Positions 2,631 through 27,036 of a DNA stretch of 64,000 nucleotides are shown here, piece by piece. A model generated the notes under the pieces. It searched no databases, had not been told where the DNA came from, and saw only the letters and a program-made list of their open reading frames with translations. Position 1 is the stretch's first letter, and every line of letters begins with the position of its first letter. Both the position numbers and the translations under genes were made by a program. This stretch comes from Bacillus gaemokensis (GTDB lineage Bacteria > Bacillota > Bacilli > Bacillales > Bacillaceae_G): contig NZ_LTAQ01000034.1 in NCBI RefSeq assembly GCF_001590835.1, positions 131,185 to 195,184 on the forward strand. The letters are read 5' to 3'.

Positions 2631-4100
2631 TTATAATTTCATCGTAACTGTCTTAGCTTCCGTATAAAATTCAAAACTATGGCGTCCACCTTCCCTGCCA
2701 ATACCACTTGCCTTAGAACCACCGAACGGGGTACGTAAATCCCGAACATACCAACAATTAATCCATAATAATCCTGAATCAATTTGCGAAACTACTCGTT
2801 GTGCTCTTCTAAGATCATTTGTCCAAACAACTCCCGCTAAACCATAAATAGAATCATTTGCAATACGAATTGCATCTTCTTCTGTTTTAAATGGAATAAC
2901 AACTAAAACTGGACCGAAAATCTCTTCTTGAGCTACGCGCATACGGTTATCAACATCATATAATACAGTCGGTTCATAGAAATTCCCTTGTGCTAAGCTC
3001 TCGATTCTTTTTCCACCGTGAGCTAATTTCGCCCCCTCGGAAAGACCTATTTTCACATAATTATCAACTATTTCTAAATGCGATGCTGACACAAGTGCCC
3101 CCATATCTGTCTCTTCATCAAGAGGATTTCCCACTTTTATCTTTTTCACAACTGTAACGAATTTCTCTAAAAACTGGTCATATACGCTTTCTTGTATGAG
3201 TAATCTTGAACCCGCTAAACAAATTTCTCCTTGATTCCGATAAATCGCTTCAATCGATCCTTGTACCGCTTCATCTAAATCGGCATCTTCAAATACAATA
3301 TTCGCGGATTTCCCGCCTAATTCTAACGAAACTGGTATTAAGTTTTCAGAAGCATTTCGCATAATTGTTTTCCCTGTATTGCTTTCCCCTACAAATGAAA
3401 TACGCCTTACAGAAGGATGTGTTGTCATTTTCGTTCCCACCGTACTTCCTGGTCCTGTAATAATATTCAGTACACCTGGAGGTAATCCAGCTTCATTCGC
3501 AATTTCACCGAGCATAACAGCGCTGAGCGGTGTATAAGAAGCAGGTTTCACAACCACTGTATTTCCAGCAGCAAGTGCAGCCGATGCCTTCCATGTCATC
3601 TGCATAAATGGTAAATTCCAAGGAATAATTAAACTTGTTACACCCGCCGGTGCATATTTTACATACGACATAAAGTTATGCTTATCATAATGTTCATGCA
3701 CCATATACTTTGCCATCTCAGCAAAGAAACGAAAATTATGTGCGGAACGCGGAATATCAAAGCCCTGGCTCTCTTTTATCGGCTTCCCAACATCAAGTGT
3801 TTCAATATATGCTAACTCATTCACTTTTTCCATAATCAAATCGGACATTTTACATAAAATTTCTGAGCGTTCTTCCACAGGCATTTTACTCCAGATGCCG
3901 CTTGTAAACGTTCTTTGTGCCACGTCTATTGCTCTCTTAACATCCTCTTCATTTGCTTGTGCAACAGAGGCGAGTTTCCTATTTGTCGATGGATTGAACG
4001 TATCAAACGTTTCGCTGGACATCGCATCAACATATTGACCATCAATAAATAACTTTGCGTCTTTCACTTTCATTTTTTCAGCTAATAGTTCTTTATTCAT
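2631..4100 (-). CDS. 2-aminomuconate 6-semialdehyde dehydrogenase (aldehyde dehydrogenase superfamily)
   Basis: This full-length 489-residue NAD-dependent aldehyde dehydrogenase has the expected motifs: PWNLP with Asn162, the general base Glu260 in LELGGK, and the nucleophile Cys294 in GEICLAGSR. The enzyme family that includes AmnC, NbaE and DmpC oxidises muconic semialdehydes. The gene sits between the deaminase (12-bp gap) and the hydratase, after the ACMS decarboxylase, so 2-aminomuconate 6-semialdehyde is the likely substrate, giving 2-aminomuconate. The superfamily is certain. The substrate comes from context. Confidence 0.9.
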   Translation of the reverse strand: MNKELLAEKMKVKDAKLFIDGQYVDAMSSETFDTFNPSTNRKLASVAQANEEDVKRAIDVAQRTFTSGIWSKMPVEERSEILCKMSDLIMEKVNELAYIETLDVGKPIKESQGFDIPRSAHNFRFFAEMAKYMVHEHYDKHNFMSYVKYAPAGVTSLIIPWNLPFMQMTWKASAALAAGNTVVVKPASYTPLSAVMLGEIANEAGLPPGVLNIITGPGSTVGTKMTTHPSVRRISFVGESNTGKTIMRNASENLIPVSLELGGKSANIVFEDADLDEAVQGSIEAIYRNQGEICLAGSRLLIQESVYDQFLEKFVTVVKKIKVGNPLDEETDMGALVSASHLEIVDNYVKIGLSEGAKLAHGGKRIESLAQGNFYEPTVLYDVDNRMRVAQEEIFGPVLVVIPFKTEEDAIRIANDSIYGLAGVVWTNDLRRAQRVVSQIDSGLLWINCWYVRDLRTPFGGSKASGIGREGGRHSFEFYTEAKTVTMKL

Positions 4101-4112
4101 ACTCTTTGCCTC

Positions 4113-4571
4113 CTACTCTTCAATTTCTAAAATCATCTCAATTTCAATTGTTGTGTTATTCGGTAGTTGAGCCATTCCAACGGCAGAACGAGCATGTTTT
4201 CCCTTTTCACCAAAAACATCTACTAATAAGTCAGATGCACCGTTCATCACTTTTGGCTGATCTATAAAATCCTCCGTACTATTTACAAAGCCAAGCAACT
4301 TCACAACTCGTTTCACCTTATTTAAATCACCAAGTTCCTGCTTTACAACACTTAATAAGTTCAACATAGATTGTCTCGCTGCCTTATATCCATTTTCTAT
4401 TGATACATCCTTACCTAATTTTCCGTGGTACTCATCAACACCTTGTCCAGCAGTAAACAATAAATTCCCCACTCTTACGCACCCAACATAATTACCAACC
4501 GCCGGGCGAATTTCTGGTAGCATGAATCCCATTTCGTTTAATTTACTCTCCGGTGTTTGTACTTTCTGCAT
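4113..4571 (-). CDS. RidA/YjgF-family protein, probable 2-aminomuconate deaminase
   Basis: This 152-residue RidA-fold protein starts MQKVQTPESKLNEMG, continues into VGNLLFTAGQGVDEYHGK, and ends in the typical IEIEMILEIEE strand. Known 2-aminomuconate deaminases (AmnD, NbaF) belong to this family and release ammonia from 2-aminomuconate to give 4-oxalocrotonate. Its start lies 29 bp inside the upstream decarboxylase gene, which implies translational coupling. RidA proteins also act as general enamine deaminases, so the assignment rests mainly on operon position. Confidence 0.83.
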   Translation of the reverse strand: MQKVQTPESKLNEMGFMLPEIRPAVGNYVGCVRVGNLLFTAGQGVDEYHGKLGKDVSIENGYKAARQSMLNLLSVVKQELGDLNKVKRVVKLLGFVNSTEDFIDQPKVMNGASDLLVDVFGEKGKHARSAVGMAQLPNNTTIEIEMILEIEE

Positions 4572-5586
4572 ATACTACACCTCTTTTTTTCATATCAATA
4601 TTTAAAAAATTGGCCGCATTTTCACCGAGCATAGCTTCCTTTTGTTCCTCTGATAACTCAAGTGTCTCGTCAATCACTTTACCTGGATGAATTTCCCGTA
4701 GTAAAAATGGATAATCCGATCCCATGAAAATCTTTTCATAACCAAAACGCTCTATCATATATTTAAGATTGATTGGATCATAGTTTAAAGAATCAAAATA
4801 AAATTTCTTTGCATAATAACTAGGAGGATATGTAGTCAGTCTCAGATGTGGCCATACTTGCCATCCTTGATCTAATCGCGGCAAAATATATGGGAAAGAA
4901 CCACCACCATGCGCAAAACAAATCTTTAGCCCCTGGAACTTTTCCATCATTCCACTCCATATGAGTGTAGCTGCTGCAAGAGCCGTTTCACTCGGCATTC
5001 CGACAGTGTACATCAAATTATGATGCTGCATTCTATCACGCCCTAGTGTTTCCCACGGATGAATAAAGATCGGAACTTGCCACTTTTCAGCCATTCGGAA
5101 AAATTCAATAAATGAAGGATCATCTAAATTTTTTCCATTTACATTCGTTCCAATTTCAATTCCATGTAGCTTTAATTCAGTTATGCATCGCTCCATCTCA
5201 CGAACTGCAGTTTCTCCATCTTGCATCGGTACTGTTCCTAATCCAACAAAACGATCTGGATATGCCAGGACTGTTTCCGCAATAAAATCATTTTGAATAC
5301 GTGCCATACTTTCCGCTTCTTCTGGTTTTGCCCAATAGGAAAATGTAACAGGAATTGGTGATAATACCTGTATATCAACACCTTCTCGATCCATATCTTC
5401 AATTCTTTTCTCTGGACACCATACTTGATCTGTCACATCGCGAAAGTTTTTCCCTCCAACCATAATAGCAGCGCCACATGTACAAGTTCGATTTAATATT
5501 GGCCAACGTCCCCCACCAAACTTCTCTTCAAAATCCGGAAATGTTTCAGGAATAATATGTGTATGAAAATCTATTCGCACTTCCAT
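4543..5586 (-). CDS. 2-amino-3-carboxymuconate-6-semialdehyde decarboxylase (ACMSD, amidohydrolase family)
   Basis: This 347-residue amidohydrolase-fold protein has the zinc set of ACMSD: HTH at residues 8-10, His176 in FIHPW, His226 in FAHGGG and Asp291 in GSDYPF. ACMSD removes CO2 from the unstable ring-opened product of 3-hydroxyanthranilate, yielding 2-aminomuconate 6-semialdehyde and diverting flux away from quinolinate. It overlaps the dioxygenase gene by 16 bp and the deaminase gene by 29 bp, so these three are tightly coupled. Length and ligand spacing match the bacterial enzyme. Confidence 0.92.
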   Translation of the reverse strand: MEVRIDFHTHIIPETFPDFEEKFGGGRWPILNRTCTCGAAIMVGGKNFRDVTDQVWCPEKRIEDMDREGVDIQVLSPIPVTFSYWAKPEEAESMARIQNDFIAETVLAYPDRFVGLGTVPMQDGETAVREMERCITELKLHGIEIGTNVNGKNLDDPSFIEFFRMAEKWQVPIFIHPWETLGRDRMQHHNLMYTVGMPSETALAAATLIWSGMMEKFQGLKICFAHGGGSFPYILPRLDQGWQVWPHLRLTTYPPSYYAKKFYFDSLNYDPINLKYMIERFGYEKIFMGSDYPFLLREIHPGKVIDETLELSEEQKEAMLGENAANFLNIDMKKRGVVYAESTNTGE

Positions 5587-6110
5587 TCCTCCACTTCTTC
5601 CGGCATAATATGTCCGCAGTTTTTACACGCACGAATTTCCTTATTTGAATTAAAACTATGAATTGCTTCCTTCACTTGTTTTTCAATATCGTTTAATTGG
5701 ACCCGTACGCGATGCATTTCATGATTACACTCATCGCAGAACCAAACAAAATCCTCAAGTTCTCCTTGGTTACGCTTCCTTTCAATTACTAATCCATATG
5801 TGTTTGCAACGCGATGGGGTGAATGTGGCACCATAGCTGGTAACATAAACACATCGCCTTCTTTCACTGTAACGACTTCACGTTTTCCTTCTTCCGTGAT
5901 ACATTCCACATAACATTCGCCTTTTATTTGATAAAAGAATTCATCTGAAGGATCCACATGAAAATCACGTCTTCTATTTGGACCTCCTAAAATCATTGCA
6001 ATAAACTCTGAATCTTGCCAAATCACCTTATTATTCACTGGTGGTTTTAATAACTCTTTATTTTCATCAATCCATTTTAGTAAATTAAAAGATTGTAATG
6101 TTTTTGACAT
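5571..6110 (-). CDS. 3-hydroxyanthranilate 3,4-dioxygenase
   Basis: This 179-residue cupin has the Fe(II) ligands His51, Glu57 and His96 in DFHVDPSDEFFYQ and VPHSPHR. A C-terminal rubredoxin-like site is formed by Cys125/Cys128 (CDEC) and Cys162/Cys165 (CKNC). The second metal site is typical of bacterial 3-hydroxyanthranilate dioxygenases. The enzyme opens the ring to 2-amino-3-carboxymuconate semialdehyde, the substrate of the next gene. Start ATG follows AGGAGG; the gene begins 33 bp after the IclR gene. The call is specific because substrate residues and context agree. Confidence 0.95.
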   Translation of the reverse strand: MSKTLQSFNLLKWIDENKELLKPPVNNKVIWQDSEFIAMILGGPNRRRDFHVDPSDEFFYQIKGECYVECITEEGKREVVTVKEGDVFMLPAMVPHSPHRVANTYGLVIERKRNQGELEDFVWFCDECNHEMHRVRVQLNDIEKQVKEAIHSFNSNKEIRACKNCGHIMPEEVEEWKCE

Positions 6111-6143
6111 GTTTTTTCCTCCTCATATTTCATTCCATCGTAA

Positions 6144-6890
6144 TCAAATATCTAAATAGCCAAATTCCTTTGAAATTAAATTTGCCGTATTCATCACACT
6201 TCGAATCATCACTTGACGATTGCTTCCTTGCATATACGATATCGGACCAACAATATTAAGAGCAGCAATCGTTCTCCCAGTATAAGAGCGAATAGGAGCC
6301 GCAATTCCATATAATCCATGCTCATTTTCGTTATCACTGATAGAATAACCTTGCTTACGAATTGTCTGTAATTCTTTCTGAAATCGTTTCATACAGGTAA
6401 TCGTATTTGGTGCCCTGGGCAAAAGCCGATTTTCTGAAGTATATTCTAAAGAAGAAGGGTTAAACGAAAGAAGGACTTTCCCTGTACTTGTACAATATGC
6501 TGGCTTTCTTGATCCAACATGAGTTGAAATTTGCACTGAATCTTTTGATGAAATTTTCAAAATAAATACAACGTCTCCACGATCAAACATACCAATGTGC
6601 ACTGTCCCATTAAATTTTCTTACCAGTTCTTCAACGATCGGAATCGCTCCGCTATAAATCTCTTGTTGAAACATCACTTGATTGCCCCACTCTAGCAATT
6701 TCCAACCTAGACGATATTTTCTCTGTTCATCACGAATTAACATTCCTTCTTCACATAATGTACGAACAAGATGGTGAACTGTACTCGGATTCATATTTAA
6801 TTTTGCTGCAATTTCAGAATTTCCTAGGACCGGCTCACCACTCGTAAAACAATTTAGAATTTTACAAATCTTACTGATAGATGCGATCAA
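6144..6890 (-). CDS. IclR-family transcriptional regulator
   Basis: This 248-residue regulator has an N-terminal winged helix (roughly residues 5-65, with NSEIAAKLNMNPSTVHHLVRTL) and a C-terminal effector domain (PAYCTSTGKVLLSF, GYSISDNENEHGLYGIAAPI). The start codon is TTG, supported by a strong GGGGAGGT 8 nt upstream. It lies between the hydroxylase gene and the dioxygenase operon on the same strand, so it is the natural regulator of both. The effector is probably a pathway intermediate. Which sites it binds is not shown, but the palindrome at 8627-8669 is a candidate. Confidence 0.9.
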   Translation of the reverse strand: MIASISKICKILNCFTSGEPVLGNSEIAAKLNMNPSTVHHLVRTLCEEGMLIRDEQRKYRLGWKLLEWGNQVMFQQEIYSGAIPIVEELVRKFNGTVHIGMFDRGDVVFILKISSKDSVQISTHVGSRKPAYCTSTGKVLLSFNPSSLEYTSENRLLPRAPNTITCMKRFQKELQTIRKQGYSISDNENEHGLYGIAAPIRSYTGRTIAALNIVGPISYMQGSNRQVMIRSVMNTANLISKEFGYLDI

Positions 6891-7020
6891 AATAACTTAC
6901 CTCCCCTATTCCAGTTACATATTTTCAGATTCATATATAGCTAAAACATATAAGAAGATTTACATCCTAACAGTAAAATTCTTGTTATCTATTTACCTCT
7001 CCTTCCTCTTCTAACAAAAA

Positions 7021-7034
7021 TGTAAGCGCAACCA
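7021..7034 (+). promoter_or_regulatory. possible CcpA cre site
   Basis: TGTAAGCGCAACCA matches 12 of 14 positions of the Bacillus cre consensus TGWAANCGNTNWCA. It lies just downstream of the hydroxylase gene and 130 bp upstream of the IclR start. Catabolite control of an aromatic pathway would make sense, but a single degenerate match is weak evidence. Confidence 0.3.
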
Positions 7035-7043
7035 TTTTCGTTG

Positions 7044-8516
7044 TTAACTTAATGCACTTTCAGACGAACTTGTTCGTAAAGCATTGTTCACAAGCGATAG
7101 AGATTGTTGCTTTTTATACGCATTATAAAACATCCCCATTTTCCGAACTGGATCTCCAGAGTAATAGCGCTCATATTGTAATAAACGTTGTCCAAATGCT
7201 TCACCACATAAATCCCAGGCTAATTTAAACAAGCGAACACGCTCTTCAGAAGATACTCCTTCACGACCAATATAATATTTATGCATATCATCTTGAATCT
7301 CCGGATTCATAAAATCAGCACCTGTCGGTGACATAAGAAGTCCACCAGCACCAATTGTTTGAATAATTTCAATAGCTCGTGGATACATTTTAGGTAATAA
7401 GCTACGTATTGTATCAAGCGGTAATCTTGCTGGTACAGCTTCACCATATGCATTCATTTCATGTTCATATTCAGCTACTTGCAAGAGTGCACGAATCGTT
7501 TCTACATCTTGCATTAATTCTGCTAACTGATTTTGTACATTTAAAAAGCCATCTACTCCAATTGAATCTGCTAACTTTATAGCCACTTCAGCTGCAAAAG
7601 AAAGTTTCACTAGTCCTCTTACTCCAGATTGATGTGCTGGCTGATGACCAATTCCTGTTTTAGGATATAGCTGATTCCCTGCCTCTACACTTTGATAAAT
7701 AAACACTTTATTCCATGGGATGAACACATTATGAAAAACAAGTAATGCATCCATTTCTTCAAACCTTGATGCAAGTGGATGATCAAACAAGGAGCGTTTT
7801 CCATCTTGCATTGGCTCACGACAAAGAATTCTTAATCCTGGCGCATCAATTGGAACTGCAAATGAGATTGCATGACGCTCATCACCTGGTTTAAAGCTCG
7901 GATAAGAATAAATGATTACCTCATCTGTAATTGGTGCAAGTGTCGCTAGCATCTTCGCCCCGCTCACATACATTCCTTCTTCTGTTTCGTTCACCACGCC
8001 TAAATGCATTGTTTCATCTTCTTGCTGATGGGAGGCTTTACTTCGGTCATTTTGCGGATTAATAATTGCATGTGTTAAAAATAAATCTTGATCACGTATA
8101 TGTTTATAATAATTTTTTATATTCGTTCCCCATGAGGAATCAAACTTTTCAAAAAACCAAGCATTGCTCGCCATTGAAGTGACTGTAACATTTAAAAAGT
8201 CTGGTGTTCTCCCCATTAAACCAAATGTAGCTTTTGCCCATATTTCAAACAATTCACGGCGCGCTTTTAAATCCTCATAATTTTTCGGCACTAAAAATGC
8301 ATTCGAAACACGTTCCCCTGTCTCTTCACATATGTGGGTAATCTTGTCCTGATACTTAGGGTCGTGCTGCATATCATATAATTTTGCAATTTGTAAAATC
8401 GGTTCCCGAAAAACATCTTCATTTACAACATCCGTTACTCTTCTCCCGCCAATCCAAATTTCAGGATTTCTTTCTTTTAACCCTTCAATATACTGAGCCC
8501 CTGTTCGAATTGCCAT
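7044..8516 (-). CDS. FADH2-dependent aromatic hydroxylase (HpaB family), probable anthranilate 3-monooxygenase
   Basis: This 490-residue HpaB-family oxygenase has the hallmark blocks [21 protein letters not shown] and [16 protein letters not shown]. The start was set at 8516 because GGAGGGGG precedes that ATG; an in-frame ATG 42 bp upstream lacks a good site. Family members hydroxylate phenols or anilines using reduced flavin from a separate reductase, which is not in this window. The next genes degrade 3-hydroxyanthranilate, so ortho-hydroxylation of anthranilate, as described for Geobacillus thermodenitrificans, is more likely than 4-hydroxyphenylacetate oxidation. Confidence 0.85.
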
Positions 8517-8611
8517 TTTTCCCCCTCCAATATACACGTTTTTAATATTACTATACATATAAGTTTAAAAACTCTTGTTATCCCCCTTTACAATTAACTG
8601 AATTTTAAATC

Positions 8612-21456: not shown

Positions 21457-21615
21457 AAAAAGCCTCCTTATGTTAAAATACTTTCTGTGCCATAACTATA
21501 TTATATTTTCTGAAAAAAATAAATGATTTATTTTATTTTTCTGAAAATTATCTATATTCTTGTCATAATTTATTCATGAATGATTCACTTTTATGATATG
21601 AAACAACTTTCTATT

Positions 21616-22254
21616 TCATTGCTTAAACGTATTATCATAAGGACCTAATTGCTTACTAGAAAAGTTATAAATAGATTTTTTATTTTTCATCATCATATTC
21701 CCTCTAACGATAAAGAGGTACGTAGCAATAACAAAATAAATTGTCCCTAAAATCCAATCCAGTACCGTAACCAAATCATTAGAAATAATATAATTCATAT
21801 ATGCACCTCCCACAGGAATATGCAATAATACAACTGCTCCTAAACCAGGATTATATATTGTTTTAGCTTTCCTATTAGCAAAAACACCGTGCCAAATAAA
21901 TTGAAAAAAACCCATAAAAACAGGTGCCATACCCAGCCATATCACATTTTGAAAAAAGATGGGAAGAAGATAAAACAAATACGCAATCAAAATATTTACA
22001 ATCATAGCAGACTGCGTATTTAATGGATAGCGATCTGGCATATCACTCTTAAATATAACAACATTGAAAAGACCGGCAAAATATCCCGGCCAACGATATT
22101 CTTCAAATTGATGCAACAAAATTGCTACAAAACTTAGCAATAAAAACACTTGTATTTTAGATACTTCTCCCCAACTCACAAATAAGTAGAGACATACACC
22201 AACGGCCACTACTGCTCCTATATCATACCAATGCTTTCTAAAAAAATTCATCAT
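21616..22254 (-). CDS. HXXEE-domain membrane protein
   Basis: This 212-residue protein has about six hydrophobic segments and the defining HQFEEYRWPGY motif near residue 48, plus a second conserved His in FQFIWHGVF and one in LLHIPVG. These polar residues inside membrane helices define the HXXEE family, whose function is unknown. Start ATG 22254 follows GGTGGGTGAT. Its 5' end lies 32 bp from the left 15-bp repeat that borders the FAD/MFS module. Confidence 0.8.
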   Translation of the reverse strand: MMNFFRKHWYDIGAVVAVGVCLYLFVSWGEVSKIQVFLLLSFVAILLHQFEEYRWPGYFAGLFNVVIFKSDMPDRYPLNTQSAMIVNILIAYLFYLLPIFFQNVIWLGMAPVFMGFFQFIWHGVFANRKAKTIYNPGLGAVVLLHIPVGGAYMNYIISNDLVTVLDWILGTIYFVIATYLFIVRGNMMMKNKKSIYNFSSKQLGPYDNTFKQ

Positions 22255-22360
22255 TTCTATCACCCACCATCTCAAATTTCATAAATTTGCAACACCCTCA
22301 TTAAAACTATTTTATTTGTAAATCTTCTATATTGAGAAAGTTTTTACGAGTAGAAAGTCA

Positions 22361-22389
22361 TTTACAACTTTGCCCTAAGGTTATATAAT
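22361..22389 (+). promoter_or_regulatory. SigA-type promoter of the FAD/MFS operon
   Basis: TTTACA (22361-22366) and TATAAT (22384-22389) are separated by 17 bp. The start codon is 66 bp downstream of the -10 box. Confidence 0.65.
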
Positions 22390-22454
22390 TTGTTTCATAC
22401 AAAAAAGTTTACCTGAGGAAACAAAATGGGATTCAGCTAAATTAGGAGGTTATT

Positions 22455-23984
22455 ATGAGTCAATCTAATAGGTCTATAGCTATTATCGGTAGTGGTGCAG
22501 CAGGTGTTTCATTATTACATTATCTCACAGTAAATCTCAATAAAAGTAATGAATCAAAGCCCCCAATAAGTATTACTATATATGAAAGAGAGGCTTCTAT
22601 TGGTCCAGGTATCGCTTATCGAGATGATTGTAGTTCGTTATTGCTAAATAGGGATTCTAAGCAGATGTCTGTTATGGTGGAGAAACCTAATCATTTTTGG
22701 GAGTGGTATAAAAGTAAATACAGAATGGTTTTTGAACAAGAAGAATTTCTGCCTAGAAGTTTATTTGGAGAATACTTAAAGAATGTTTTTGAAAAAAGTA
22801 TTCAAAGAGCTTTAAGGAAAAATGTTAGAGTTAGTATTAAATATAATGAGGTAGCAAGTGTATTAAAAACGGATAAAAAATATATTATTACGACAAGTGA
22901 TGAGGAAACGAAAGAGTTTGATCAAGTCTTACTATGTATAGGAAGCACAAGATTAAATGATTTTTACAATCTGAATGGGAAATCACAATTTATCTATAAC
23001 CCTTATCCTTTTAAAGAAACTATGTCAATCATACCGAAGAATTCCAAAATTGCTATTTTAGGATCTAGTTTAACAGCTATAGATATCTGTTTAGCTCTTA
23101 AAGAGAATGAATATGTGGGAAAACTGGATATGTTATCTAGAAGGGGAGAGCTTCCTTCTGTTAGAGGAGAAATTAAACCATATAAGCTTAAGTATTTAAC
23201 TCGTGATTCACTAATTCAGCTACTTTTGAGTGGAAATGGGAAAATTACATTAAAAGATATTGCTAGACTCATAAAAGAAGAGTTTAACGTACTACATTTA
23301 GAGTGGAAATATATATTTTCACCTAGTTATAAAGATACAAATATAAAAAAAAGATTAGAAACAGAGATAAGAAATAGTAAAATGCAGGGATCGTGGCAGT
23401 CTATATTGTTATCGATGAATGAAATAATTGAAGAATACTGGCATTTTTTAAATGAGAAAGATAAAAAACTCTACCTTGATAAATATGATAGTATTTTTCA
23501 GAGTAGAAGAAATCCAATGCCTTTAACTAATGCAATTAAAATACTAAAATTTATGAATGACGGGCAACTATTAATAAGGAAAGGGATTACACATATTAAT
23601 TGTCAAAAAGATCACACGTTTTGTGCTCAATTCAATAATGGAGAGTATGTAAATTATGACTGGATTATTAATGCAACTGGACCGACTAAAAATCTGAACA
23701 AATTATGTGGAAGCAAGTTAGTTGAGTCATTGATCAGAAATGGTTATGCAGTAACTGATACTTATGGTGGCTTAAAAACTGAATTTAGCTCAGGTGCTTT
23801 AATTGGACAAAATGGTGAATTGGATAAAAGATTAAGAGCTTTAGGTCATATAACTTGTGGAACTTATTATTACACAAGCTCGATGGAAATGATTGCAAAA
23901 CACGCTAAAGCGATAGCAGAAGATATTTCTAAGCTAGTTAATAAATCTCTACAAGAAGATAAGAAGGCTGTAAATTTAAATTAA
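22455..23984 (+). CDS. FAD/NAD(P)-binding oxidoreductase (NAD_binding_9 type)
   Basis: This 509-residue protein has two dinucleotide-binding motifs: IIGSGAAGVSLLHYL (GSGAAG at residues 12-17) and IAILGSSLTAIDICLAL (203-208). It also has a C-terminal WIINATGPTKN typical of flavin monooxygenase-like folds. It resembles the poorly characterised YdhS-type family. ATG follows AGGAGG. The downstream MFS exporter starts 15 bp later, so an enzyme-plus-exporter pair is likely, perhaps acting on one small molecule. The substrate is unknown. Confidence 0.8.
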   Translation: MSQSNRSIAIIGSGAAGVSLLHYLTVNLNKSNESKPPISITIYEREASIGPGIAYRDDCSSLLLNRDSKQMSVMVEKPNHFWEWYKSKYRMVFEQEEFLPRSLFGEYLKNVFEKSIQRALRKNVRVSIKYNEVASVLKTDKKYIITTSDEETKEFDQVLLCIGSTRLNDFYNLNGKSQFIYNPYPFKETMSIIPKNSKIAILGSSLTAIDICLALKENEYVGKLDMLSRRGELPSVRGEIKPYKLKYLTRDSLIQLLLSGNGKITLKDIARLIKEEFNVLHLEWKYIFSPSYKDTNIKKRLETEIRNSKMQGSWQSILLSMNEIIEEYWHFLNEKDKKLYLDKYDSIFQSRRNPMPLTNAIKILKFMNDGQLLIRKGITHINCQKDHTFCAQFNNGEYVNYDWIINATGPTKNLNKLCGSKLVESLIRNGYAVTDTYGGLKTEFSSGALIGQNGELDKRLRALGHITCGTYYYTSSMEMIAKHAKAIAEDISKLVNKSLQEDKKAVNLN

Positions 23985-23999
23985 ACAGGAGTTATAAAA

Positions 24000-25247
24000 A
24001 TGAAACAAAAAAATCACTCTTTGCTTATTTTTATTTTGATCACACTTGTATGCATCCCGCAAGCATCTATTGGATTGTATATTCCTTCTTTACCGCATAT
24101 GGTTAAGGCACTACATACAAATAGTAATGAGTTACAATTTACGTTAAGTATATATATGATTGGTTATGCTTTTTCAACGTTAGTATGTGGCATTCTTTCA
24201 GATAGGTATGGAAGAAAACCTGTGTTACTAGCTGGTTTGAGTATATATTTAATTGCTACGTTACTTTGTTTAACAGCAAGTAGTGTATATGTGTTAATTA
24301 TTGGGCGCTTTTTGCAGGCTCTTGGTGGATGTTGTGGAACTGTGCTAGCTCGGGTAATCGCAAAAGATACTTTTGAAAATAAAGATCAAATTCGAATATT
24401 AACTTATTTATCGACTGCAATTGCTATTACCCCAGCAATTGCTCCAATTCTTGGTGGCTATTTAGAATTTTACTTCACATGGAAATCTGGTTTCTTAATT
24501 TTAAGCTTCATCTCTTTCATGGCTTTGTTGCTTTGTATGTTCGGATTGAAAGAAACAAATGAACATAAGGATTTAAGTGCTACAAATTTTTTCACAATAG
24601 CAAAAAATTATAAGCATCTTTTAACTCATAGGCTGTTTTTGACCTATAGCATATCTATTGGTCTCGCATGGTGTGCTTATTATTCTTTTATACAATCATC
24701 TTCTTTTGTATTTCAAGATATTTTTAAAGTAACACCTATTGTATATGGTGGTATGTATGCAATAGTAATTTTAGGTTATATTTTGGGTACTACATTTACT
24801 AGAAGGTATTCTAATAAGATTGGAATCAATAATGTAATTATGTATGAAAGCTTACTTGCACTAGGTGCAGCAATAGTAATGTTATTTGTTATGTATGTTA
24901 ATAACAGTGCATTGATAGGTATTTTACTGCCTATGGCTATACTTATGATAGGAGTTGGTGGTATTTTTCCTGCATGTCAAGCAGCGGTTATGCAGCCTTT
25001 TGTTCATATTGCTGGAACTGCATCTGGATTGTTTTTCTTTATCCAAATGATTTTTGGTGCAATTTGCGGATTAATTCTTGGTAGTTTTCATGTTCATTCT
25101 CAAGCACCAATGGTAGTTACGATTACTTTTTCTTGTAGTTTATTAGTTTTAGTTTTTTATTCACTTGTTTGGAAGGATTCTAAACATAGTCCAATTTATA
25201 ATGCGGAAAAATATACTGAATACAGCCAATATAAAGAAAAAAACTAG
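24000..25247 (+). CDS. MFS multidrug exporter, Bcr/CflA-like
   Basis: This 415-residue protein has twelve predicted helices, the loop 2-3 motif GILSDRYGRKPVLLAG and the motif C-like stretch LGGYLEFYFTWKSGF. These fit the Bcr/CflA drug:H+ antiporter branch (DHA1). ACAGGAGTT precedes the ATG, which lies 15 bp after the flavoprotein gene. Context suggests export of a product or substrate of that enzyme, or resistance to it. It ends 32 bp before the right 15-bp repeat, so the whole operon sits within the bordered module. Confidence 0.85.
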   Translation: MKQKNHSLLIFILITLVCIPQASIGLYIPSLPHMVKALHTNSNELQFTLSIYMIGYAFSTLVCGILSDRYGRKPVLLAGLSIYLIATLLCLTASSVYVLIIGRFLQALGGCCGTVLARVIAKDTFENKDQIRILTYLSTAIAITPAIAPILGGYLEFYFTWKSGFLILSFISFMALLLCMFGLKETNEHKDLSATNFFTIAKNYKHLLTHRLFLTYSISIGLAWCAYYSFIQSSSFVFQDIFKVTPIVYGGMYAIVILGYILGTTFTRRYSNKIGINNVIMYESLLALGAAIVMLFVMYVNNSALIGILLPMAILMIGVGGIFPACQAAVMQPFVHIAGTASGLFFFIQMIFGAICGLILGSFHVHSQAPMVVTITFSCSLLVLVFYSLVWKDSKHSPIYNAEKYTEYSQYKEKN

Positions 25248-25353
25248 ATTTATTCAAATAAAAAAACACCTTAGTTTATTGAGGGTGTTGCAAAACTAAA
25301 CTAAGTATTCATTATTATGAATCAGTAAAACTAGTTGAACATGCAATAAATAG

Positions 25354-25570
25354 GGTTCTGGTGCAAAAAAGCGAAAACTCTTGCAAAGAGTCTTTTAAAC
25401 TTTTTCATACTGATACTATTATTCTAAAAGGACAGACTTTCCAAGGGGAGAAGTCTGTCCAAAAACAAATACAGTTAATCGCTCAGCTCTTCTGCCTTAC
25501 CGCATAGTAGTAGATTTCGTTAGGAATCTACACCGCTATTTCTAGTCCACATATTATTTGCACCAGAACC
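25354..25570. mobile_element. MITE-like element with IS6-type 14-bp terminal inverted repeats
   Basis: GGTTCTGGTGCAAA (25354-25367) and its exact complement (25557-25570) bound 217 bp without a transposase. The ends closely resemble IS6-family termini (GGTTCTGTTGCAAA type). Flanks share ATAAA next to both ends, a possible decayed target duplication. The interior has two strong hairpins: GGACAGACTT/AAGTCTGTCC (about 25430-25460) and GTAGATT/AATCTAC (about 25508-25530). It may be a structured, non-autonomous element. Confidence 0.65.
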
Positions 25571-25842
25571 ATAAAAGCACGTTACTATTCTCATTAACAT
25601 AAGAGCATAGTCTAAATCCTTAAGTTGATGGATGTGGGGCGGTACCCCATATTGTTTTATTCTTTCATCCCAGATACATGTAAAAATAGGTCATAGAATG
25701 TATTTTATTTTCGTCAAGTGCTGTTTTGAATGCAAAGTAAATGCACCTCTTTAGCCAGCTTAACACATAAGAGAGTTTTAGATTTATATTAAGGGATTTT
25801 GAATGTAACGTAGCGAAAAGGAGTTTGTATTAGATTACTTGT
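25571..25842. other. gene-free stretch with an IS231-like end
   Basis: CCATCAACTTAAGGA (minus strand, about 25618-25631) resembles the inner part of IS231-type terminal repeats, and a GGTACC-centred palindrome follows at 25636-25648. No partner end was found nearby. Short open stretches here have no ribosome site and look like decayed coding DNA. Confidence 0.35.
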
Positions 25843-27036
25843 TTAATTTTTTGAACCTAACACTTTAAAGTCATAAGCATAAATTGACTTTCCTCCCCGG
25901 ACAGAATTAACAATTTCCTCCATCCCTGTAACTTCAGTTTCTTTAATTTTCTTACCGTTTTTTAAAGAATAATTTTCCATATAATATTTGTTTTTTCGAT
26001 TTGCATCGTAGCGTAATACATATAATTGATCACCTTTGAAAAATGTTTGTTCATTGTATCTAACACCATCAGTTACATGATAGTCAATCTTAAATTTAAT
26101 ATTCACTGAATTTGTCTGTGTATTAAACGTAGTAACTTCACCTAGGCCATTTATAAAATATAGTTCATTGTTATATAGATATGCGGAATTATTTTTTGTA
26201 AAAGGTATTGAAGCTGTAGAGTCTTCTTCGGAAGACATCAAAATTAATTCTTGTTTTAATGTTGTTTTATCAATACGTAACAAATAGACTTTTCCTTTAA
26301 CCGTACTATCATTTTCAACTAAAACATTATAATAAAACTTTGAATCACTTAACACAGAAGAATAACTAGAATATGACATATTTTTATCTAAATCAATTGC
26401 TCTAACATCTTCAATCTTCATCTTTAAATCATTGAATGTGAGCTTTTTTAAACTGTATTCTTTTTTATCTATATCTTCAGTTATGATCAAAACAGTCTCT
26501 TCATCCACCCCTGAACTCATAAGATAATGTGGAATATTCCCTTTATGAATACCTTTTTTATTACCATATACAACGTTTGAGTTATATCCTCCAGTTTCAA
26601 TATTATTTCCAGAATTATAAATGTTTACAAACAAGTCATTTTTCTTTAAATAGACCCTCTGATCACCTGTATGTTGATATTTCACCTTAAAATCTCTAAA
26701 GTTCTCTCCTACAATCTTAAGCCTATTCTTACTCTCTAATAAAAGTTCTTTTTTATTCTCAGATACACCTATACCACCAAGTTCTAAACCATTCATTTTA
26801 TAACCTCTTGCTTTCCCGTTCTCATCGATAAACACCGCAAAACTAATACCCTGACCGTCCATATCTTGATCAGCAGTAGAAGAAAGGTATACCACAGCTT
26901 GTTTATCCTTCAAAAAATCTTTTTTTTGAATATCCTCCTCAGATATTAAATCCACATTTGAGTTACTGAAAAAGAAAAAATAGACTAAAGCTGTAATCAA
27001 GATTATACCTAAAATAACAAATAATAGTTTTTTCAT
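25843..27036 (-). CDS. membrane-anchored extracytoplasmic protein, unknown
   Basis: This 397-residue protein has an N-terminal membrane anchor (residues 4-24) and a long exported region. The exported part is rich in short beta strands and repeated Lys/Asn/Tyr motifs (VYLLRIDKTTLK, LYNNELYFINGLGEVTTFN, LYVLRYDANRKN). This pattern suggests a beta-propeller-like fold, which I infer and cannot prove. It lies 62 bp downstream of a secreted cysteine-protease-like gene on the same strand, with a terminator between them. No family recognised. Confidence 0.65.
   Translation of the reverse strand: MKKLLFVILGIILITALVYFFFFSNSNVDLISEEDIQKKDFLKDKQAVVYLSSTADQDMDGQGISFAVFIDENGKARGYKMNGLELGGIGVSENKKELLLESKNRLKIVGENFRDFKVKYQHTGDQRVYLKKNDLFVNIYNSGNNIETGGYNSNVVYGNKKGIHKGNIPHYLMSSGVDEETVLIITEDIDKKEYSLKKLTFNDLKMKIEDVRAIDLDKNMSYSSYSSVLSDSKFYYNVLVENDSTVKGKVYLLRIDKTTLKQELILMSSEEDSTASIPFTKNNSAYLYNNELYFINGLGEVTTFNTQTNSVNIKFKIDYHVTDGVRYNEQTFFKGDQLYVLRYDANRKNKYYMENYSLKNGKKIKETEVTGMEEIVNSVRGGKSIYAYDFKVLGSKN

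Follow-up and report, generated by a model that had tools for sequence, protein, structure and literature searches.

What placed a two-gene module of Bacillus gaemokensis between two perfect copies of a 15-bp inverted repeat, and have those repeats ever moved it? The locus lies in a stretch of 64,000 nucleotides, hereafter the window, and an earlier note on this DNA had suggested that it may be a mobile cassette with a function in small-molecule modification and export. We favour another answer, to which we give a probability of roughly 0.6: positions 22301-25279 would be an accessory two-gene operon induced by metal starvation, probably of manganese under the control of MntR, that makes or oxidises a small molecule and exports it, and that has decayed IS remnants alongside rather than being a transposon excised by flanking repeats. 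The features on which the argument turns are the following.

22286..22300, + strand: left repeat, 15 bp identical to an IS terminus (GAGGGTGTTGCAAA plus T), with its GAG side toward the module
22361..22389, + strand: sigma-A-type promoter (TTTACA, 17 nt, TATAAT; 11/12)
22369..22384, + strand: predicted MntR-like operator 1, TTTGCCCTAAGGTTAT, in the promoter spacer; 12/16 to the B. subtilis MntR site
22407..22422, + strand: predicted MntR-like operator 2, GTTTACCTGAGGAAAC, with near-identical copies in four metal-ABC promoters; 11/16
22455..23984, + strand: FAD-NAD(P)-binding protein, 509 aa, PF13454 NAD_binding_9 (Pfam E 7.5e-32)
24000..25247, + strand: Bcr/CflA-family MFS exporter, 415 aa, passing TIGR00710 (262.9 bits, cut-off 200.9)
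25280..25353, - strand: right repeat and IS remnant, GAG at 25281; transposase end, with the body pointing away from the module
25354..25570, no strand assigned: IS6-type element, internally deleted, 217 bp, with GGTTCTGGTGCAAA inverted ends; it truncates the IS remnant

The repeats and the IS to which they belong

The sequence TTTGCAACACCCTCA occurs exactly at 22286-22300 (+) and again at 25280-25294 (-), as the earlier note had reported; no other site in the window matches with fewer than 3 mismatches, and the inverted arms around the module extend to 20 nt at 95% identity. The same note held a chance match to be very unlikely. The pair is real, but its rarity was overstated, for exact inverted 15-mers 100-5000 nt apart arise at a mean of 1.08 per dinucleotide-shuffled window (n=200 shuffles). 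At least one such pair was present in 114/200 shuffles, and the real window has three; pairs in which 7 or more of the 15 bases are G/C, as in the one that flanks the module, appeared in 7/200. Since shuffles yield inverted 15-mers this often, the pair taken by itself is no more than suggestive, and we accept it as real because its right arm is an IS terminus found elsewhere, not because 15-mers are rare. A reading of the right repeat as part of a terminator was rejected: its hairpin with AACACC just inside is modest (-8.1 kcal/mol, z -1.8), and the pair is not explained in this way, since the terminator scan gave no passing site and nothing comparable can pair with the left repeat.

The relative of the right arm came from a plasmid search with 21600-26000 as the query, in which the right repeat region matched plasmid pBEH5 of Priestia filamentosa (NZ_CP015327.1) at 87% over 75 bp, running outward from the module. 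The match is the 3-prime end of an IS of ~1.0 kb with inverted ends GAGGGTGTTGCAAAAC and a single transposase of 289 aa (DDE_Tnp_1/DUF772). The resemblance of the repeats to transposon termini, remarked upon earlier, is thus borne out. The absence of a transposase holds for an intact gene but not for fragments, because the C-terminus of the IS transposase is still encoded directly outside the right arm, in the first ~60 bp past the repeat (25302-25373, - strand; tblastn E 1.1e-4). The IS material left in the window amounts to 73 bp of one end on the right, with transposase codons, and 15 bp on the left. The transposase scores 84.7 against Pfam DDE_Tnp_1 (cut-off 23) and passes neither of two NCBIfam models (IS1182, 120.6 of 270 bits; IS5_4, 90.4 of 140 bits), and we call the family only IS1182/IS5-like. 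Relatives of the transposase occur in 84 plasmid records, in 6/19 genomes of one family (E up to 0.001) and in 6/299 genomes of the order (E up to 1e-40).

On its outer side the right remnant is cut by the 217-bp element, two blocks of which match both ends of ~850-bp elements, some annotated as IS6 family transposase; no 8-bp target duplication was seen by eye around it. Further out, 25603-25651 holds a short repeat with several copies in two other genomes (G300 and G301), which we take to resemble an IS231 end. Plasmid matches were found neither for 25572-25843 nor, in the large plasmid search, for 25295-50000. The left repeat we read as only a scar, whose IS body would have been on its left. 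The sequence beyond its 15 bp has no IS homology: 461/500 and 276/500 shuffles align equally well to the two IS ends.

Polarity of the ends and independent occurrence of the gene pair

Which way the termini point can be read directly from intact copies of the IS. Sixteen loci were scanned for ends, and both ends could be measured in 12 elements, pBEH5 included, the others having one end or none. These 12 elements are 996-1028 bp long and have GA[G/A/T] outermost in 12/12; exact direct repeats just outside the ends are of 5-6 bp in 6/12 and of 4 bp in 1/12, with none in 5/12, including pBEH5. The GAG sides of both repeats in the window are turned toward the module. Since GA(G) is the outer terminus in all 12 copies, the IS bodies must have lain outside the module, and a transposase acting on such inside-out ends would therefore not excise the module as a normal unit. 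Outside the repeat pair, the flanks TTTCATAAA and ACTAAACTA have no direct repeat of more than one base in common. A single IS on a circle was also considered and rejected, as the 6 nt that adjoin the two termini toward the module, ATTAAA and TTTATT, do not form a direct repeat. At least 120 viral-contig stretches match the 15-mer; among the matches listed each stretch has a single one and none has paired ends, and they were judged to be chance. Plasmid searches with the bare ends gave mostly weak chance matches, and one match (H39) led again to pBEH5.

The gene pair itself has a patchy distribution, which answers the earlier suggestion that its presence and absence be checked. In a contig scan the flavoprotein had a single close relative, that of Metabacillus arenae, where the gene order is the same and the DNA is 74% identical to the window over 22444-25119. 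The flavoprotein is present in 2/397 genomes of the order, M. arenae (G001) and G220 (41%), and in 3/80 genomes of the M. arenae family, namely G001, G452 (65%) and G457 (29%, with no exporter next door); the G452 pair is 73% identical to the window in DNA. By DNA, the module is absent from 19/19 genomes of the G130 family, which includes the closest genomes found, and the flanking genes of these are just 65-75% identical to those of the window. At the three other pairs (M. arenae, G220 and G452; loci L001, L201 and L238) there is no copy of the 15-mer within 3 mismatches. Upstream of the G452 pair lies a gene for a serine resolvase, and downstream of it one for an IS110 transposase. The pair thus exists elsewhere apart from these repeats, as an accessory unit.

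These observations bear unequally on the ways in which operon and repeats could have come together. A mobile cassette in the manner of MIC231, whose two repeats an IS transposase would recognise in trans, would fit exact inverted repeats that closely enclose the promoter and both genes, and it would fit a rare and patchy gene pair. We nevertheless regard it as highly improbable: the ends are inside-out relative to every IS copy with both ends read, the flanks have no target duplication, transposase coding sequence lies on the outer side of the right arm, and the pairs in other genomes do without the repeats. The proposal of mobilisation in trans is thereby contradicted.

A decayed composite transposon has a substantial chance of being right, if somewhat below even odds. 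Two IS copies would have brought the operon in, after which deletion reduced the left one to 15 bp and the IS6-type element cut the right one short. This would explain why IS-type termini face the operon from both sides at tight spacing, and the resolvase and IS110 genes near the G452 pair are in keeping with it; the left remnant, however, stops after 15 bp, past which there is no IS homology, and the IS copies may be later arrivals. We think it unlikely that the left repeat is a chance match, with the right arm as the sole IS remnant and the arrival of the operon unrelated to this IS. Chance readily produces inverted 15-mers in a window like this one, and the missing IS sequence beyond the left arm suits this account, but a chance arm would need to coincide with an IS terminus, and G/C-rich pairs are scarce among the shuffles. 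Under the reading that we prefer, an accessory operon with IS remnants alongside, the IS copies may either have carried the operon in as part of such a composite transposon or have inserted beside it. The case illustrates that an operon between exact inverted repeats can pass for a transposon where polarity goes unchecked.

A promoter shared with metal-uptake operons

The link to metals comes from the promoter. As a scan result alone it is no evidence, because it is the best of 13 promoter-like sites where shuffles average 17.5. It is conserved, though, in an alignment with other promoters: in an order-wide DNA search, 22351-22422 matched four genomes, each time ahead of two genes that form a metal ABC transporter operon, at 76-80% identity over 70-75 bp. 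Conserved in the alignment are TTTACA, TATAAT and AAAAAGTTTACCTNAGGAAAC, with one genome differing by a base; ahead of the metal ABC operon the 16-mer is exact in three of these genomes and has one mismatch in the fourth. The promoter thus has sequence in common with these four metal-uptake operons, and the two 16-nt sites within it are predicted operators by their likeness to the published B. subtilis MntR site, AAAATAATTTGCCTTAAGGAAACTCTTT (PMC9861239).

The core of the MntR-like 16-mer matches this site at 12/16 positions in the window, at 12 in M. arenae and at 13 in both G220 and G452. Per 1000 shuffles, the score was reached by 34 for the window, 93 for M. arenae (whose box is weak if taken alone) and 4 for G220, with a Fisher p of 0.001 from which G452 was left out, because its promoter is homologous to that of M. 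arenae and not independent. In the window, 4/46 upstream regions reach 12/16; these include the intergenic region before the module as read in the opposite direction. The motif GTTTACCTNAGGAAAC is not enriched over its reversed control (6 vs 7 at up to 1 mismatch, 8 genomes), and what it contributes lies only in the positions of its sites. A clear site was present at only 1 of the 3 mntH genes found, that of G301 scoring 13/16. In the same genome, locus L214 (C37:38518-38533) has an exact GTTTACCTAAGGAAAC ~40 bp upstream of a feoA-feoB pair; MntR control of ferrous-iron uptake is possible there. Names such as feoAB, cshB and nfo were assigned by eye. Rfam gave nothing at gathering score in the window, and only sub-threshold chance matches in the leader.

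MntR control of mntH and mntA is described in PMC11275975 and PMC10448178. The consensus given in PMC10448178 is noted there to differ from earlier ones, and calls of MntR sites carry doubt for that reason. A repressor domain of the DtxR type (PF01325) is encoded in 10/10 genomes searched, including M. arenae and G220. Two of the four metal-ABC operons were compared with NCBIfam; the best names were a manganese/iron ABC ATPase and a SloB-type metal permease, with all scores under their cut-offs, and the zinc model AztA came nearest to its own (198 of 220). These scores do not fix the metal, because every ABC family falls below its cut-off and a zinc model is the closest.

Another metalloregulator, Zur or an iron regulator, might control the operon in place of MntR. 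Homologous promoters do precede metal ABC operons whose models include one for zinc, the closest to its own cut-off, and a homologous site also stands upstream of the feoAB-like locus. The consensus for Zur is TCGTAATNATTACGA, and the sites of the window resemble the published MntR site and not this one, so that we hold a different regulator to be rather doubtful. Returning to MntR as the probable regulator, we suggest that when manganese, or a related metal, is plentiful this DtxR-family repressor would keep the operon silent, and that under scarcity it would leave the two operators and allow expression. The flavoprotein might then oxidise, or perhaps N-hydroxylate, a small substrate, the product of which the Bcr/CflA exporter would pump out of the cell.

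The enzyme and exporter compared with known systems

The description of the module as an FAD enzyme and an MFS exporter agrees with the family assignments given above, and a role in small-molecule modification and export is a fair reading of two genes for a PF13454 flavoprotein and a Bcr/CflA transporter. The exporter also matches EmrD in the PDB (2gfp, E 9.7e-35). The PF13454 protein is, from its sequence, a probable flavin-dependent monooxygenase or oxidase, with relatives at 63, 65 and 41% identity. A PDB sequence search with it returned only weak matches to flavin monooxygenases (E 0.01-0.03, and 0.1 in another search), and its AlphaFold model, built from two sequences, has a mean pLDDT of 35, leaving the chemistry unsupported by fold. 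With the profile matches weak and the fold prediction failed, N-hydroxylation is a guess.

Plasmids often carry distant relatives of the flavoprotein (509 records), and we looked at the context of five of these, taken from the top matches. On a Pantoea plasmid, genes for an ATP-grasp protein and an MFS protein adjoin the relative; on a Streptomyces plasmid an MFS gene lies two genes beyond it; and on a Phaeobacter plasmid it is accompanied by ATP-grasp and aminotransferase genes. The contexts on Rhodococcus and Thioclava plasmids have no exporter beside it. In G457 the relative adjoins a gene for a haem-containing dehydratase of the aldoxime type, a neighbour that would fit an N-hydroxylating enzyme. 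At that locus (L239, 3491-7301) the PF13454 gene is followed by those for the haem dehydratase and a homoserine O-succinyltransferase, and the leader has a stretch that by eye resembles a GEMM (c-di-GMP) riboswitch. Elsewhere in the window, 2631-8558 carries genes like HpaE and HpaB of 4-hydroxyphenylacetate breakdown, just below the model cut-offs.

If the parts are put together, the operon could make and secrete a molecule that scavenges or spares manganese: an MntR-controlled flavoenzyme, possibly an N-hydroxylase with a metal-chelating product, would act with its own exporter, and the two genes would be a minimal manganophore system distributed among Bacillales as an accessory pair. We consider this speculative and improbable. 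The two-gene unit holds neither a known synthase for a metallophore scaffold nor an uptake system for the loaded chelator, and a search by name in an open-licence library, which excludes most subscription journals, turned up no dedicated manganese chelator system. What the locus points to is a metal-regulated pair of enzyme and exporter that has no obvious import function.

Several known systems resemble parts of this locus. The IS of P. filamentosa pBEH5, whose relatives are annotated as ISNCY in plasmids of Geobacillus and Parageobacillus, has a 15-bp terminus identical to that of the window, which, unlike this IS, is devoid of a transposase gene. In the Bacillus cereus group, MIC231 mobile insertion cassettes carry passenger genes between IS ends and have no transposase; the locus shares this arrangement, but its IS ends have the opposite polarity, which leaves the passenger outside them. 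The YdhS-type FAD-NAD(P)-binding proteins of E. coli (PRK09897, PF13454) belong to the same family by their N-terminal domain, and the flavoprotein of the window stays far under their equivalog cut-off (69.6 of 783 bits). Opine metallophore systems, such as staphylopine cnt and its kin, combine, under the control of a metal, a gene for a biosynthetic enzyme with a neighbouring one for an MFS exporter, as we propose here; unlike them, the module has no gene for a nicotianamine-synthase-like protein, an opine dehydrogenase or an importer, and its enzyme is a PF13454 flavoprotein. The MntR regulon of B. subtilis (mntH, mntABCD) likewise has an MntR-like operator over the promoter and start region; there it governs metal importers, whereas the predicted operators of the window would control a flavoenzyme and an exporter.
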